Shown piece after piece: positions 3,203 through 64,000 of a stretch of DNA of 64,000 bases. This stretch comes from Melioribacter roseus. Lineage in GTDB: Bacteria; Bacteroidota; Ignavibacteria; Ignavibacteriales; Melioribacteraceae. The stretch covers positions 1-64,000 of the forward strand of contig DYHH01000010.1 of the NCBI GenBank assembly GCA_020724265.1, written 5' to 3'. The stretch's first letter is position 1. Every line of letters begins with the position of its first letter. The position numbers and the translations under genes are program-made. The notes beneath the pieces were generated by a model that had not been told where the DNA came from, ran no database searches, and was given only the letters and a program-made list of their open reading frames with translations.

Positions 3203-4330
3203 GTGAAGCAAACAGCGATTTACATTCACATTCCTTTCTGTGATCACAAATGTATTTATTGTGATTTTTATTCAATCATAAATTACGACAATCTTAATAA
3301 GTATCTTACAGCAATAAAAAAAGAAATTGAATTAAGACAGAAAGATTTTTCCGAGGACAGGGAAATAATATCCATTTTTTTTGGCGGGGGAACTCCATCA
3401 TTCATGACACCCGGATATATCGGTGAAATAATTAATTCAATCACTAAAAATTTTTCTGTTCGAAATGATGCAGAAATAACTTTGGAAACAAATCCCGGTA
3501 CGGTAAGCAAACAAAAATTGAAAGATTTTTTATCTGTAGGAATTAATCGACTTAGTATTGGAATACAATCATTTAATGATAATGAGTTAAAATTTCTTAC
3601 TCGAATCCATGATTCACAAACAGCAATTGAAACAGTGAATAGCGCAGCACAATCAGGTTTTAATAATATCAGTGTTGACCTAATATTTAATCTTCCAGAT
3701 CAAAGTAAAAAGATGTGGAAGAAAAATCTTGATATTTCAGTAAGTCTTCCAATTACACATATATCGGCGTATAGTCTTATACTTGAAAGGGGCACAATTC
3801 TTAATAAAATGGTTCTTGACGGTAAGGTTCAAATGCAGGACTCCGATCATGATGCTGAACTATATGAAACTACCATTGAATTATTAACAAACAATAGGTT
3901 CAGTCAATACGAAGTTTCAAACTTTGCAAAAGAAAATTATGAGTGTATTCATAATAATGCTTATTGGCGTTATAAAGATTATCTCGGTTTCGGTACCTCC
4001 GCTCATTCGTTTATAAACGGAAAAAGATGGTGGAATTATTCTTCATTAAATTTTTATTTGGAAAAAATGAAGAACGATAACCCGGTTGCGGGAGAAGAAG
4101 TTTTAACTAATAATCAAATGCATGATGAATATATTATGTTGGCTATGAGAAGCAATGGGTTAGACATTAATGATTATGAAAACCGTTTCGGTTCAATGTG
4201 GATTAATAAAGTGCAGAATGATCTCACCGAATATCAATCAAAAGGTTACTTATCAATAGATGATAATTTTATTAAATTTACTCCAAAGGGCTATACTCTT
4301 TGTGATGAGATAATAGGCAGACTTTTATAA
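3203..4330 (+). CDS. hemW: HemW-type radical SAM protein, heme chaperone
   Basis: Radical SAM protein of the HemW (formerly HemN-like) family, which binds and delivers heme and is often misnamed coproporphyrinogen III oxidase. The [4Fe-4S]-binding cysteines are C13, C17 and C20 in CDHKCIYCDF, followed by the FFGGGTPS glycine motif that contacts SAM. At 375 residues it has the HemW length, and it lacks the N-terminal extension of true HemN. The start is GTG; no upstream in-frame start fits, since the Cys motif is already near the N terminus. It sits 14 bases before the symporter gene. Confidence 0.9.
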   Translation: MKQTAIYIHIPFCDHKCIYCDFYSIINYDNLNKYLTAIKKEIELRQKDFSEDREIISIFFGGGTPSFMTPGYIGEIINSITKNFSVRNDAEITLETNPGTVSKQKLKDFLSVGINRLSIGIQSFNDNELKFLTRIHDSQTAIETVNSAAQSGFNNISVDLIFNLPDQSKKMWKKNLDISVSLPITHISAYSLILERGTILNKMVLDGKVQMQDSDHDAELYETTIELLTNNRFSQYEVSNFAKENYECIHNNAYWRYKDYLGFGTSAHSFINGKRWWNYSSLNFYLEKMKNDNPVAGEEVLTNNQMHDEYIMLAMRSNGLDINDYENRFGSMWINKVQNDLTEYQSKGYLSIDDNFIKFTPKGYTLCDEIIGRLL

Positions 4331-58773: not shown

Positions 58774-59052
58774 ATGCCGAAACTCGTTTCTGTTGAACCT
58801 CGTGATTCAAGAAAAATTTTTCTTAAATATGATGACGGAGTTGAAGGACAAGTTGATTTAACAAAAACTATCGAAAGAAATGTTTTTGATGATTTAAATG
58901 ATCTTAAAGAATTCTCAAAAATTTATTTTAATGAAAACACAGACGAACTCTGCTGGCCATGCGGAGTTCGGATGTGTACTAATGCATTATATAGACAGGT
59001 TTCGCTTCTCTCGTTAATGGATCGATTAAAAATAAGTATCGATAATGTTTAA
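58774..59052 (+). CDS. DUF2442 family protein
   Basis: A 92-residue protein of the DUF2442 family, seen from KLVSVEPRDSRKIFLKYDDGVEGQVDL split at the start, VFDDLNDLKEFSKIYFN and DELCWPCGVRMCTNALY. Members are small cytoplasmic proteins, often in toxin-antitoxin-like contexts, with no proven function. It starts one base after the dehydrogenase stop and overlaps the YidD-like gene by eight bases. Confidence 0.82.
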   Translation: MPKLVSVEPRDSRKIFLKYDDGVEGQVDLTKTIERNVFDDLNDLKEFSKIYFNENTDELCWPCGVRMCTNALYRQVSLLSLMDRLKISIDNV

Positions 59053-59494
59053 TAAATTTTTTTTAACAATCATATTTATTACTGCAGTTAATCTCTCCGC
59101 ACAAATAGAAACTTATAAATGGCAACCGAATGAAGTTGATTATCGATTGAACATACCTGTTGCTAAAGAATACAAAATAATTACTTCTAATTTTTCTACT
59201 TTATTAATTTCATTTTGTCAAGCTGTATATTACTCTGTCTTTTCGGAATATGACGGTGATAATTGTCCGTTTCATCCCTCGTGCTCTGCTTTTTTTGTTG
59301 AATCGGTTGAGCGGACAAATATTATCGAAGGTGGCTTAATGTTTGCCGATAGATTTACACGCGATATAAATTTCTTTAAAGGATATAACAGTTATCCGCT
59401 TCATTTTACCGGTAGATTTTATGATCCGGTTTACAAATACAAACTTCTTCCTCTCACAGAATTAGTTGAATTAATAAAATCAGAAAATGATTAA
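59045..59494 (+). CDS. yidD: Exported YidD-like protein
   Basis: A 149-residue protein with the YidD (PF01809) core: ISFCQAVYYSVFSEYDG in place of the usual LIxxYQxxISP, then NCPFHPSCSAFFVESVER (C74, C80) and a late FYDPVYKY. Classical YidD is about 80 residues, lies beside yidC and rnpA and acts at the inner face of the membrane. This one has a Sec signal peptide (MFNKFFLTIIFITAVNLSAQ), lacks the third conserved Cys, and is overlapped by two TPR membrane genes. Its role is probably different and is not known. Confidence 0.82.
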   Translation: MFNKFFLTIIFITAVNLSAQIETYKWQPNEVDYRLNIPVAKEYKIITSNFSTLLISFCQAVYYSVFSEYDGDNCPFHPSCSAFFVESVERTNIIEGGLMFADRFTRDINFFKGYNSYPLHFTGRFYDPVYKYKLLPLTELVELIKSEND

Positions 59495-60353
59495 ATCTTT
59501 TTTCTCCCGACTAATTATTTTTTCGATGATTCTGACAATTGTTAATCAAGCACAGGATAATGTTTTTTTAAGCATCGAAAACAGATTGAGATTTGGTGAT
59601 TTTCTTTTTTGTGATAATGATTATCTCCGTGCAATCGATGAATATAAAATAGTACTTAAGAATAAAGAAAGTGATATGCTTAAATTCAAAATCGCCTTAG
59701 CATATCAAGAATTAAAAAAATATAACGAATCGGAAAATTCATTCAAAGAATTATTTTCGAGTCAACAATTTGCAAATGAGGCAAAGTTCGAATACTTCAG
59801 AACACTTTATCTTTCTGACAATTTTGAAATGATGGATAAACTGATAAAGGATGATTCATTTATTGATGCATCCACAAGTAAAGAGATTAAAAAGCTGTAC
59901 AATTTGAAGCATCTTTACTCGCAGTTTCACATTGAAGATTCATCGGATTTCTTTGATCCTTTCAATGATAAGGAAAGTGTTGAACTCCTTAAATATTTTA
60001 TTAGAAAACAAAATATTGAAAATAAAAGTCCGGCGTTTGCTGCGGTTCTAAGCGCAGTTGTTCCGGGATTAGGGAAAGTTTATACTGAAAATTATGGAGA
60101 CGGAATAACAGCCTTCTTATTAACCGGGGTACTTACATTTTTAGCAATAGATAATTTTAATGCCGAACATGACTTTAGAGGTTGGTTGTTTACCGGTTTA
60201 GCCGCATATTTTTATTCAGGAAATATATACGGCTCGGCAACCTCGGCTCAATTATTTAATGCCGGTGCACGAATAACATTCGATAACGATTTGCAATTAT
60301 TTCTAAATAAGAATAACCACTTTATTCCTAATAATAATTTGTTTTGCAAGTAG
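59487..60353 (+). CDS. TPR protein with C-terminal PGxGxxYxxNY membrane domain (copy A)
   Basis: A 288-residue exported protein with a signal peptide ending near NQAQD, TPR-like helices (about 25-165), then a hydrophobic domain that begins LSAVVPGLGKVYTENYGDG (P193) and contains YFYSGNIYGS (Y243). The next gene encodes a paralogue with the same order. The PGxGxxY motif recalls TM2 or DUF5683 domains. The start overlaps the YidD-like gene by eight bases, so the products are probably made together. No function is known. Confidence 0.78.
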   Translation: MIKSFFSRLIIFSMILTIVNQAQDNVFLSIENRLRFGDFLFCDNDYLRAIDEYKIVLKNKESDMLKFKIALAYQELKKYNESENSFKELFSSQQFANEAKFEYFRTLYLSDNFEMMDKLIKDDSFIDASTSKEIKKLYNLKHLYSQFHIEDSSDFFDPFNDKESVELLKYFIRKQNIENKSPAFAAVLSAVVPGLGKVYTENYGDGITAFLLTGVLTFLAIDNFNAEHDFRGWLFTGLAAYFYSGNIYGSATSAQLFNAGARITFDNDLQLFLNKNNHFIPNNNLFCK

Positions 60354-60385
60354 TTGAAGACTCTGAGTCTGCTTTTATAAAAAAA

Positions 60386-61216
60386 ATGAAGAATACCATT
60401 TACATATTAATCCTATTTATTTGCCAAATAACTTTTGCAACTGATGAACTTGCACGGCAATATGAATATGCCGATAAACTTTTCAATAAAGAAAATTACT
60501 TTGAAGCAATTACAGAATTTAAGCGCTTATCTTTCTTTGATGAAAAAAATGTTTATGCTTATGAATCAAATTACAAAATAGGTATTGCCTATAAATACGG
60601 CGGATTTTATGATAATGCTATTCAATATCTATCACACTCAATAAGAGAGACAGAAAATTTTGAGAAAAAAATACAATCACAATTTCAAATTATAAGATGC
60701 AATATTCTTCGTAAAACAACCGATAGGGCTTTGCAGTTACTTAATCAGTTAGAAGAAGATTCGAAGTATGAAAACTATAAAAATGAGATTTATTACTGGA
60801 AAGGTTGGAGTTTTATGATTTCCGATCGGTGGGATTCAGCCTCGCAATCTTTTGCAAATATTTCGGAAGATCATGAATTAAAAATATTATCCGAGCAAAT
60901 ATATAATGAAAAATATTCGGTTACTTTTGCACGTGTAATTTCTTATATTTTGCCCGGTGCGGGACAATTTTATACCGGTAATTATCTCTCCGGGTTTATG
61001 TCTATTGCATGGAATGTTTTGTGGGGATATTTAACTATAAACTCATTTATCGAAAACCGTGCCTTTGACGGTGTTGTAATAGGTTCTTTGCTTTGGTTGA
61101 GATTTTATAGTGGTAATATTCAAAATGCCGAGAAACTTGCTGTACAAAAAAATATTGAAACTGCAAATACTGCACTACTATACTTAATGGAAAATTATAG
61201 AGGTGAAAAACCGTGA
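60386..61216 (+). CDS. TPR protein with C-terminal PGxGxxYxxNY membrane domain (copy B)
   Basis: A 276-residue paralogue of the preceding product. Signal peptide MKNTIYILILFICQITFA, TPR helices (about 20-165), and a hydrophobic domain starting ISYILPGAGQFYTGNYLSG (P190) with RFYSGNIQNA later. The ATG at 60386 is chosen because it begins the signal peptide; a TTG 14 codons earlier overlaps copy A. Its stop overlaps the GTG of the ACT gene by four bases. Function unknown. Confidence 0.78.
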   Translation: MKNTIYILILFICQITFATDELARQYEYADKLFNKENYFEAITEFKRLSFFDEKNVYAYESNYKIGIAYKYGGFYDNAIQYLSHSIRETENFEKKIQSQFQIIRCNILRKTTDRALQLLNQLEEDSKYENYKNEIYYWKGWSFMISDRWDSASQSFANISEDHELKILSEQIYNEKYSVTFARVISYILPGAGQFYTGNYLSGFMSIAWNVLWGYLTINSFIENRAFDGVVIGSLLWLRFYSGNIQNAEKLAVQKNIETANTALLYLMENYRGEKP

Positions 61217-61641
61217 AACTTACCGAAGAACAAATCAGAAAATTAACCATTGAAGCTATCAATGAATTAGGAGAAGACGCAACTCCCCAAAAAGTTAAAG
61301 CGATAGTAACTAAAGCAATTGAAAAATTTCCGGCAGATGATTCACGTCCGCTCAGCAATGAATTAGCCGAAGGTAGAGTAATTATTACTTCATTCGGTTT
61401 AAATGAACCGGGAATAGTTGCTGCAATCACAAAAAGTTTGAGCGAAGCAAAATGCGATATTCAAGATATCAGCCAAAAACTGATGGAAGAATTTTTTACA
61501 ATGATTATGATTGTCGATATTACAAACTCACCCAAAGATTTTAAAGAGCTTCAGCAAGAATTAAAAGATGTAGCAGAAAAACTTAATATAAAAATCTATC
61601 TTCAGCATGAAGATGTTTTTAGAATGATGCACAGATTGTAA
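61213..61641 (+). CDS. ACT domain protein (UPF0237-like)
   Basis: A 142-residue protein with an N-terminal helical extension of about 50 residues and a C-terminal ACT domain pair (VIITSFGLNEPGIVAAITKSLSEAKCDIQDISQKLMEEFFTM, split across the fold). It resembles UPF0237/GcvR-like ACT proteins, which bind amino acids, and such genes are typically next to UPF0210 genes as here. Start is GTG overlapping the previous stop (GTGA). The ligand is unknown. Confidence 0.85.
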   Translation: MKLTEEQIRKLTIEAINELGEDATPQKVKAIVTKAIEKFPADDSRPLSNELAEGRVIITSFGLNEPGIVAAITKSLSEAKCDIQDISQKLMEEFFTMIMIVDITNSPKDFKELQQELKDVAEKLNIKIYLQHEDVFRMMHRL

Positions 61642-61693
61642 TAAATAATTCCGCATCAAAGCGGTTCATTTTCTCACTTAATTTTCAATATAT

Positions 61694-63055
61694 ATGAACT
61701 ACGAATTCGATGAAATATTAGAAACTATCAAAATGACGGAGATCGAACATTTCGATATTCGTACAGTAACTTTAGGAATTAGTTTACGTGATTGTGCCGA
61801 TAGAAATCTTGAAATCACAAAACAAAAAATTTATGATAAGATTCTTAAGTACGGCAGAAACCATGTTAAATATGCTAATGAAATTGAAGCTCGATACGGA
61901 ATAGCAATTGCTAACAAAAGAGTTTCAATTACTCCTATCTCAATTCCATTCGATTATCTAAACGCGGAAGAGTTTGTTGAAATTGCAAAAATATTAGATA
62001 AAGCTGCCGAGGATATAGGAATTGATTACATTGCCGGATATTCTGCTCTCGTTCAAAAAGGAATGACTAACGGTGAAAGAGAATTAATAAATTCAATTCC
62101 TTACGCACTATCACAAACTAAAAGAGTATGCTCAAGTGTTAATACAGCATCAACCAAAGCGGGAATTAATATTGATGCTGTTAATATGGTAGCTAAAGCA
62201 ATCAAGAAAACAGCCGAGTTTACAAAAGATAATGATTCAATTGGCTGTGCTAAATTTGTTGTGTTTGCAAATGCTGCCGAAGATAATCCATTCGTTGCCG
62301 GTGCATTTCATGGAATTACCGAACCCGAAGTTGTTTTGAATGTCGGAATCAGTGGTCCCGGTGTAGTTCTCGATGCTATTAAAAGTGCAGGGCATGTTGA
62401 TTTAAGTGAACTTGCCGAAGTCATTAAGAAAACAGTATTTAAAATCACTCGTGCCGGTGAATTAATTGGTAGAGGGGTTGCAAAACTACATGGTATTCCA
62501 TTCGGAATTGTTGATGTATCATTGGCACCAACGCCTGCCGAAGGTGATAGCATCGGTGATATTTTAATCGCAATGGGAGTCGAAGATGTTGGTGCACCCG
62601 GAACAACTGCAGCTCTTGCTATGTTGAATGATTCGGTTAAGAAAGCCGGATTAATGGCAAGTACTGCAGTCGGAGGTTTGAGCGGTGCTTTTATCCCTGT
62701 TAGCGAAGATCAAGCGATGATCCGTGCAGTTGAAAGAGGAAATCTATCTTTGGAAAAATTGGAAGCAATGACAGCCGTCTGTTCTGTTGGATTGGATATG
62801 GTTGCAGTACCAGGTGATACATCAACCGAAAATATTGCCGGAATTATTGCCGATGAATGTGCAATCGGCGTTATAAATGATAAAACAACAGCAGTACGCA
62901 TTATCCCGGCTTATGGTAAATCAGTCGGTGATTATGTTGATTACGGAGGTTTACTCGGAAGAGCACCGATTATGGAAGTCCGGAAAATTAGCGGCGCAAA
63001 ATTTGTAAATAGAGGCGGTAGAATTCCCGCACCAACAAGAAGTTTAACAAACTAA
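61694..63055 (+). CDS. PFL family protein (UPF0210/DUF711)
   Basis: A 453-residue protein of the UPF0210 family, with a fold related to pyruvate formate-lyase and ribonucleotide reductase barrels but without a known reaction. Diagnostic stretches are [39 protein letters not shown] (here [10 protein letters not shown]) and [28 protein letters not shown] near the end. It pairs with the upstream ACT gene across 52 bases that contain a small CCGC-GCGG hairpin. Confidence 0.9.
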
Positions 63056-63070
63056 ATAACGGAGAATATT

Positions 63071-63679
63071 GTGAAGAATAAAGGACTAATGATAGGCTGC
63101 GGTATCGGAGCCGTTTTAGTAGTTATCATTATCGGTTTTGTTTTATGGGGTGTTAGTATTTACAATAGTCTTATTACTCTTGAAGAAGGTGTTAATCAAA
63201 GTTGGGCACAAGTTGAAAGTCAATATCAAAGAAGAGCTGACTTAGTTCCAAATTTAGTTAATACCGTAAAAGGCGTTGCTGAATTTGAAAGAGAAACTTT
63301 TACTGCAGTTACCGAAGCACGTGCAAGAGTAAATCAAATTAATTTTACACCCGAAATGTTAGAGAATCCAAATGCATTTCAACAATTTCAAAGCGCTCAA
63401 GGTGAACTTAGCAGTGCGTTATCCCGCTTGCTTGTTACAGTTGAAAATTACCCGCAGTTAAAGGCAAACGAAAACTTCTTACAACTTCAGGCTCAATTGG
63501 AAGGGACGGAAAATCGAATTGCTGTGGAAAGAATGAAATTCAATCAAGCTGTGCAGGGTTACAATACAAGAATCAGAAGATTCCCGGCTAATTTTATTGC
63601 CGGAATAACCGGCTTTAATCAAAAACAATATTTCCAAGCAGCAGAAGGTGCTGATGAAGTTCCGAGAGTTGAATTTTAA
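63071..63679 (+). CDS. lemA: LemA family membrane protein
   Basis: A 202-residue protein with one N-terminal membrane helix (about 5-30) and a helical-bundle LemA domain: NSLITLEEGVNQSWAQVESQYQRRADLVPNLV, then a coiled region and the conserved YNTRIRRFPANFIAGITGF near the C terminus. The start is GTG with CGGAG upstream. LemA genes commonly precede TPM-domain genes, as here. The function of the pair in envelope quality control is only suggested in the literature I recall. Confidence 0.93.
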   Translation: MKNKGLMIGCGIGAVLVVIIIGFVLWGVSIYNSLITLEEGVNQSWAQVESQYQRRADLVPNLVNTVKGVAEFERETFTAVTEARARVNQINFTPEMLENPNAFQQFQSAQGELSSALSRLLVTVENYPQLKANENFLQLQAQLEGTENRIAVERMKFNQAVQGYNTRIRRFPANFIAGITGFNQKQYFQAAEGADEVPRVEF

Positions 63680-63681
63680 TT

Positions 63682-64000
63682 ATGAATCATTATTTCTGCA
63701 CAACACATAAAAAATTAAACCTTCGAGGTAAGCGAAGTCGCAAAAACGGACTATATCCTCGAAGGTTGCTAGTTTTGCTGTTCATAATATCGATGTTCCT
63801 ATCAATTTCATCTGCCCAAGAACAATTTCCCAAATTAAACAGATATGCTACCGATTTGACGAATACAATTTCCGCAAATCAATTAGAGTATCTTAACCGG
63901 GACTTAAAAACATTTGACGACACAACATCAAATCAACTTGTATTTCTTATGTTAGCTTCATTAAACAATTACCCGGTTGAGATGTTTGCTTATGAAGTTG
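63682..64000 (+). CDS. TPM domain protein, 5' part (runs off the right edge)
   Basis: The frame is open from the ATG two bases after the lemA stop to the end of the window. After a hydrophobic signal segment ending SISSAQE comes the start of a TPM domain (YATDLTNTISANQLEYLNRDLKTFDDTTSNQLVFLM region), expected downstream of lemA. The first 28 codons are odd: they are basic and most of them lie in a 50-bp inverted-repeat element. TTG at 63766 or 63775, after GAAGG, may be the real start. Incomplete. Confidence 0.8.
   Translation, partial: MNHYFCTTHKKLNLRGKRSRKNGLYPRRLLVLLFIISMFLSISSAQEQFPKLNRYATDLTNTISANQLEYLNRDLKTFDDTTSNQLVFLMLASLNNYPVEMFAYEV
63718..63767. repeat. 50-bp palindromic element between lemA and the TPM gene
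   Basis: AACCTTCGAGG at 63718-63728 is matched perfectly by CCTCGAAGGTT at 63757-63767. The 28-base interior holds a second small hairpin, GCGA-TCGC at 63732-63741. The stem is GC-richer than its surroundings. It falls inside the frame of the TPM gene before its hydrophobic signal segment and looks like an inserted mobile palindrome or an intercistronic hairpin. Confidence 0.65.

Follow-up and report, generated by a model that had tools for sequence, protein, structure and literature searches.

A stretch of 64,000 nucleotides from Melioribacter roseus (GenBank assembly GCA_020724265.1, contig DYHH01000010.1, positions 1 to 64,000; hereafter the window), a member of the order Ignavibacteriales of the Bacteroidota, carries at positions 59045–61216 three consecutive genes for a YidD-like protein with a predicted signal peptide (P1) and two membrane proteins with tetratricopeptide repeat (TPR) helices (P2 and P3). 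Sequence comparison strongly supports the assignment of P1 to a separate, exported YidD subfamily which is distinct from the housekeeping copy, and suggests that P1, P2 and P3 very probably constitute a functional module of the periplasm.

All three genes lie on the forward strand. P1 (59045–59494) is 149 amino acids in length and its frame overlaps that of P2 (59487–60353, 288 amino acids) by 8 bp, while a gap of 32 bp separates P2 from P3 (60386–61216, 276 amino acids). The start of P3 is most likely the ATG at 60386, a better choice than the TTG at 60344, which is also possible. The initial annotation of the window had described three overlapping or nearly touching genes, the latter two encoding PGxGxxYxxNY and YSGNI motifs, and the frames, overlaps and motifs are present as claimed: P2 is of the PGxGK type (PGLGKVYTENY) and P3 of the PGxGQ type (PGAGQFYTGNY), with FYSGNI also present in the pair.

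The YidD domain of P1 (residues 60–112; 59222–59380) exceeds the curated cut-offs of both Pfam YidD (PF01809; 37.8 bits, cut-off 27) and TIGR00278 (41.9 bits, cut-off 40). It keeps the CxxxxxC core, the Y....S helix, the G...R..R segment and the DP motif of the family, and both cysteines of the core (C74 and C80) are invariant in 41 aligned rows. The third cysteine of YidD (in the pair RC) is Asp in the window P1 (D107) and in every aligned homologue from the order. Absence of one conserved cysteine from P1, as first noted, is thus correct, with the refinement that this loss characterises the Ignavibacteriales and a branch with a PEGA lipoprotein or a single P2, while other exported YidDs keep the residue. 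It is retained at the loci of the fusion and LolA-type branches described below (L081–L083, L086, L112, L116–L118 and L120; L denotes a locus and G a genome) and is Asp or Glu elsewhere. An AlphaFold2 model of P1 (mean predicted local distance difference test score, pLDDT, 83) has helices at residues 50–70, 80–90, 93–107 and 110–116.

Housekeeping YidD proteins, the membrane protein insertion efficiency factors of the cytosolic side, are short, positively charged, lack a signal peptide and are encoded between rnpA and yidC, and P1 shows none of these traits. In Escherichia coli the gene order is rpmH-rnpA-yidD-yidC (PMC10502375), as also seen in the K-12 record. The slot between rnpA and yidC in the genome of the window (3.77 Mb) is held by a canonical YidD of 69 amino acids (G000:C3:59764), which confirms that P1 is extended in length and is not the copy beside yidC or rnpA. 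Among the 58 genomes of the order with at least 95% completeness, canonical yidD is found in 57 (matches of about 100–114 bits) and an exported second YidD in 55 (mostly 33–52 bits); G012, G015 and G043 have the canonical YidD only, and the draft genome G036 the exported one only. Relatives of P1 are present in 136 of 146 genomes of the order. The P1-matched loci in named genomes (n = 18) belong to Ignavibacteria, Melioribacteraceae or metagenome-assembled genomes labelled Bacteroidetes. At E values of 1e-10 to 1e-6, the P1 profile has many matches in the phylum that resemble the canonical form of YidD and were not taken as members. A frame of 436 amino acids with YidD in G036 was rejected as a fusion; its YidD portion has the character of a usual exported YidD.

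A tree of 75 YidD domains (60 columns) divides exported from canonical YidD by one branch (support 99/98, present in 100% of the bootstrap trees). Sub-branches within the exported group track module architecture, namely the fusions, the LolA-type loci, the PEGA/single-P2 loci and the Ignavibacteriales together with G533; the inner order of the tree is unsure, however, given the short alignment and the long branches of some rows. The residue preceding the first Arg of the R..R signature is Asp or Glu in 51/51 exported and 0/24 canonical domains (D102-R103 in P1); inspection by eye of five canonical rows missed by the signature pattern shows Lys or Arg at this site. The domain's net charge has a median of -2 in exported YidD (n = 51, range -6 to 6) against +7 in the canonical form (n = 24, range 4 to 9). 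Such a change from a basic to a slightly acidic domain is expected, by the positive-inside rule, for a domain relocated away from the positively charged inner side of the membrane. Most of the exported rows in this comparison come from the order, the others having values of -3 to +6; the charge shift is thus graded. It had to be considered that P1 might be the housekeeping YidD itself, carrying a mis-called signal peptide and flanked by unrelated genes. P1 does exceed the equivalog cut-off of TIGR00278, and automatic annotation would therefore label it YidD, but the canonical yidD in the same genome and across the order, the separate branch, the shifted signature residue and net charge, and the natural fusions described below rule this explanation out, leaving it scarcely any probability.

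Unlike the canonical form, P1 has a signal peptide and a linker ahead of the YidD domain. Signal peptides, called by rule from hydrophobicity and cleavage motif, are predicted in P1 (59045–59101, cleavage A19|Q20) and in P2 (59487–59552, cleavage A22|Q23), both with a small residue followed by Gln at the site (SA|Q and QA|Q, respectively); the N-terminus of P3 is hydrophobic and lacks the Gln. The Sec signal peptide proposed at the outset for the YidD-like protein recurs in the order, as all of 43 P1 homologues have a hydrophobic N-terminal core and a cleavage-like [AGS]Q site, and 40 of these 43 have Lys or Arg near the start. In Bacteroidetes the residue after signal peptidase cleavage is as a rule Gln, with a share of 77% in Ignavibacterium album (PMC5837995), and the Gln after the P1 cleavage site fits this rule.

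P2 and P3 were suggested to be paralogues of one layout, and profile comparison agrees, showing them to be homologous across both the TPR part and the membrane domain (hhalign probability 99.4%, E = 6e-22, 234 columns). The model of P2 (mean pLDDT 92.3) displays a TPR solenoid up to about residue 175 (residues 30–175, 59574–60011), followed by the PGxGxxY membrane domain (residues 182–275, 60030–60311) with helices at 182–191, 195–199, 203–225 and 229–275. The corresponding domain of P3 comprises residues 178–276 (60917–61213). Membership of the TPR class follows from the model for P2 and from homology to P2 for P3, since single-repeat Pfam scores in the window are below cut-off. Residues 25–179 of the P2 model align to TPR chains with Z scores of 10–12.6, including BamD (3qky, Z 11.5, root-mean-square deviation (rmsd) 2.4, 122 residues aligned); YbgF can also be aligned. 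The BamD/YfiO profile TIGR03302 gives 10.6 bits for P3, against a cut-off of 81.4, and no match for P2. Searches of the PDB by sequence and by Foldseek returned no solved relative of YidD, though one may still exist, and barely probed the PGxG domain, as TPR matches fill the list.

The PGxG domain is weakly similar to the DUF5683, TM2 and DUF6677 families. Likeness to DUF5683 (PF18935), which comprises PGxG membrane proteins of Bacteroidota, lies in the PGxGxxY motif and the hydrophobic C-terminal part, but module proteins stay below the gathering cut-off of 26.7 bits: the two proteins of the window score 17.9 and 12.9 bits and the best one, at L088, 24.8 bits. The inspected matches to the P2 profile with E values above about 1e-11 (L096–L102) are other PGxG proteins with no YidD nearby, and were rejected as members of the module. 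Those at L096–L100 represent another PGxG family (PGxGE, about 310–400 amino acids) with a long insert between the hydrophobic parts, and three of them adjoin an exported protein of 1032–1066 amino acids.

P1, P2 and P3 occur in this order, on one contig and strand and within 250 bp of each other, in all 40 genomes with comparable coordinates (38 of the order and two outside). Within the order the trio is part of a longer conserved string, acyl-CoA dehydrogenase–DUF2442–P1–P2–P3–ACT–DUF711–LemA–TPM-type, and linkage at the level of the order is therefore weak evidence when taken alone. Scans with the P2 profile yielded 15 strong matches elsewhere in Bacteroidota, and at 14 of these, from 11 families, an exported YidD is encoded next to the match or within its frame (L081, L082, L083, L086, L088, L089, L095, L112, L113 and L115–L119). 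Eight of the 14 linked genomes were found by the P2 profile alone (G151, G519, G533, G570, G579, G590, G621 and G630), and every one has an adjacent or fused exported YidD. Outside the order the ACT–DUF711–LemA context is gone, except in G533, and the link within the trio is kept. It is conceivable that the gene order is merely inherited within the lineage and that the three proteins act separately, in line with the much longer string conserved across the Ignavibacteriales. However, the linkage amid other neighbours in 14 genomes from other parts of the phylum, the four fusions and the joint absence of P1, P2 and P3 from G012, G015 and G043 make this very improbable. The question raised with the initial annotation, whether the neighbourhood extends beyond the lineage, is accordingly answered by 14 further genomes of 11 families with changed contexts, four of them with fusions.

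Four loci encode YidD, a TPR-like stretch and a PGxG domain in one frame, namely L086 (400 amino acids), L112 (443), L116 (427) and L118 (398). Each fusion has only one N-terminal signal peptide, located ahead of YidD; a signal peptide precedes P2 where it is free but not where it is fused, as a shared periplasmic location would predict. That YidD and the TPR/PGxG proteins remain linked across the Bacteroidota, at times within a single chain, strongly supports their action in the same compartment. A fusion-type PGxG domain at L114 (about 3944–4237, in G538) stands alone with no YidD in frame, and is perhaps a decayed fusion gene. YidD proteins were once labelled haemolytic in old annotation, and this membrane-active label, together with the exported location, might suggest that the exported YidD acts on the membranes of other cells, with P2 and P3 serving for its secretion or immunity. 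Its near-universal presence in the order (136/146), its conserved sequence and its occurrence in one chain with a membrane-anchored TPR protein render such a role most unlikely.

In relatives outside the order, and at L120, the gene upstream of the exported YidD often encodes one of two types of partner. In the first (type A; L081, L082, L083, L117 and L120), the partner is an exported protein of 230–249 amino acids whose profile has the carrier LolA (2w7q) as its only significant PDB match, a weak one (E = 2e-4, best stretch 33 positions). Against Pfam LolA it scores 13.6 bits (cut-off 23.6) and it is also below the cut-off of NCBIfam LolA; the proteins of L081 and L083 show marginal pairwise BLAST likeness (E = 5e-4). 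Upstream of the LolA-like gene, four loci encode a small membrane protein of 130 amino acids with no Pfam match above cut-off (L082, 1456–1869; L081, 7614–8015; L117, 1998–2402; L120, 2787–3179). L120 (G072:C54:45500–55500) belongs to a genome of the Ignavibacteriales that has an ordinary trio on contig C79; it is a second, divergent LolA-type module in the order small membrane protein, LolA-like protein, exported YidD, P2 and P3, and was possibly acquired. In the second type (type B) the gene immediately upstream is that of a lipoprotein with a PEGA domain, above cut-off at L086 (3654–4124), L112 (2480–3037), L118 (2892–3374), L115 (2812–3333) and L095 (6165–6653) and similar by eye at L119. 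In several families these lipoproteins carry a hydrophobic GWFWGN-like segment. Neither a LolA-like nor a PEGA partner is present beside the window trio. From their sequences, the partners point to lipoprotein or outer-membrane traffic.

The linkage, the fusions and the signal peptides bear out the proposal of a dedicated envelope module with a YidD fold on the periplasmic side. P1, P2 and P3 thus very probably work as a single unit in the cell envelope. In this unit the TPR parts would form a scaffold in the periplasm, anchored in the inner membrane via the PGxG domain, and the exported YidD domain would rest on the periplasmic side of the same membrane, docked on the scaffold. Such a unit may receive or hold clients which come from the Sec/YidC machinery or are bound for the outer membrane, and pass them on; where encoded directly upstream, the LolA-like protein or the PEGA lipoprotein would serve as carrier or as client. 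We consider the chances evenly balanced that the module serves, on the periplasmic side, in the biogenesis of membrane proteins or lipoproteins or in passing them on. Tentatively, it may further be a widespread Bacteroidota complex, with a YidD fold held at the periplasmic face on a TPR/PGxG scaffold and a LolA-like carrier or PEGA lipoprotein, which would serve either as a trans-side counterpart of YidD/YidC insertion or as a dedicated branch of lipoprotein sorting.

In its mode of action the unit would be nearer to the trans-side translocon chaperone pair PpiD-YfgM than to cytosolic YidD. Both would have TPR helices as a scaffold on the periplasmic side of the inner membrane, and the TPR part of P2 aligns to PpiD-YfgM (8zht_B) with a Z of 10.5 (rmsd 4.9, 146 residues aligned). 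However, the module has a YidD domain and no peptidyl-prolyl isomerase part, and the likeness is confined to the generic TPR fold.

It is also possible, though rather unlikely, that the envelope complex has another task, the exported YidD being a membrane-binding adaptor only and the TPR/PGxG proteins organising the inner membrane or periplasm in lipid transport or in peptidoglycan or stress sensing. The weak similarity of the PGxG domain to families of unknown task and the LemA and TPM-type genes downstream of the trio in the order would be in keeping with this, but these neighbours are confined to the order and G533, and the LolA-like and PEGA partners indicate protein or lipoprotein traffic.

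Several observations weigh against a module acting in such traffic. YidD is nearly universal and its biochemical role is poorly understood, so a function assigned by analogy with it is thin. A table in PMC8082313, which cites Yu et al. 2011, has E. coli YidD as a putative factor for insertion that is in contact with SecYEG. The signal peptides are rule-based calls, the LolA likeness is weak and this partner is absent from the cluster of the window, and, since TPR is a generic fold for which such Z values are usual among helical repeats, little can be read from the likeness to BamD or YfgM. In addition, the PGxG domain of G538 stands alone, with no YidD, and in G036 YidD (L084) and P2 (L121) are located on different contigs.

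The start of P1 is overlapped by 8 bp by a DUF2442 gene (58774–59052, forward strand), which neighbours the trio in 13 of the order loci compared, is not found beside the relatives outside the order and is not counted in the module. At the other end, an ACT-domain gene (61213–61641, forward strand), an order-level neighbour outside the wider module, overlaps the stop of P3. It opens a group of ACT, DUF711, LemA and TPM/YgcG-type genes close behind the trio (61213–63999), a string kept across the order.

In the open literature searched we found no description of an exported YidD, of this gene set or of the function of DUF5683, in agreement with the earlier remark that no function was described for such a set. 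Judged on its sequence, the exported YidD is a new subfamily with a new predicted location, signature and set of partners. An old branch of YidD that has crossed the membrane with its core kept and with fixed, even fused, partners is a natural experiment, which separates the residues needed for the fold from those working on the cytosolic side and offers defined partners for seeking an activity. The equivalog label of TIGR00278 would misname this second family, and the module offers a clue to what the uncharacterised PGxG membrane domains do.
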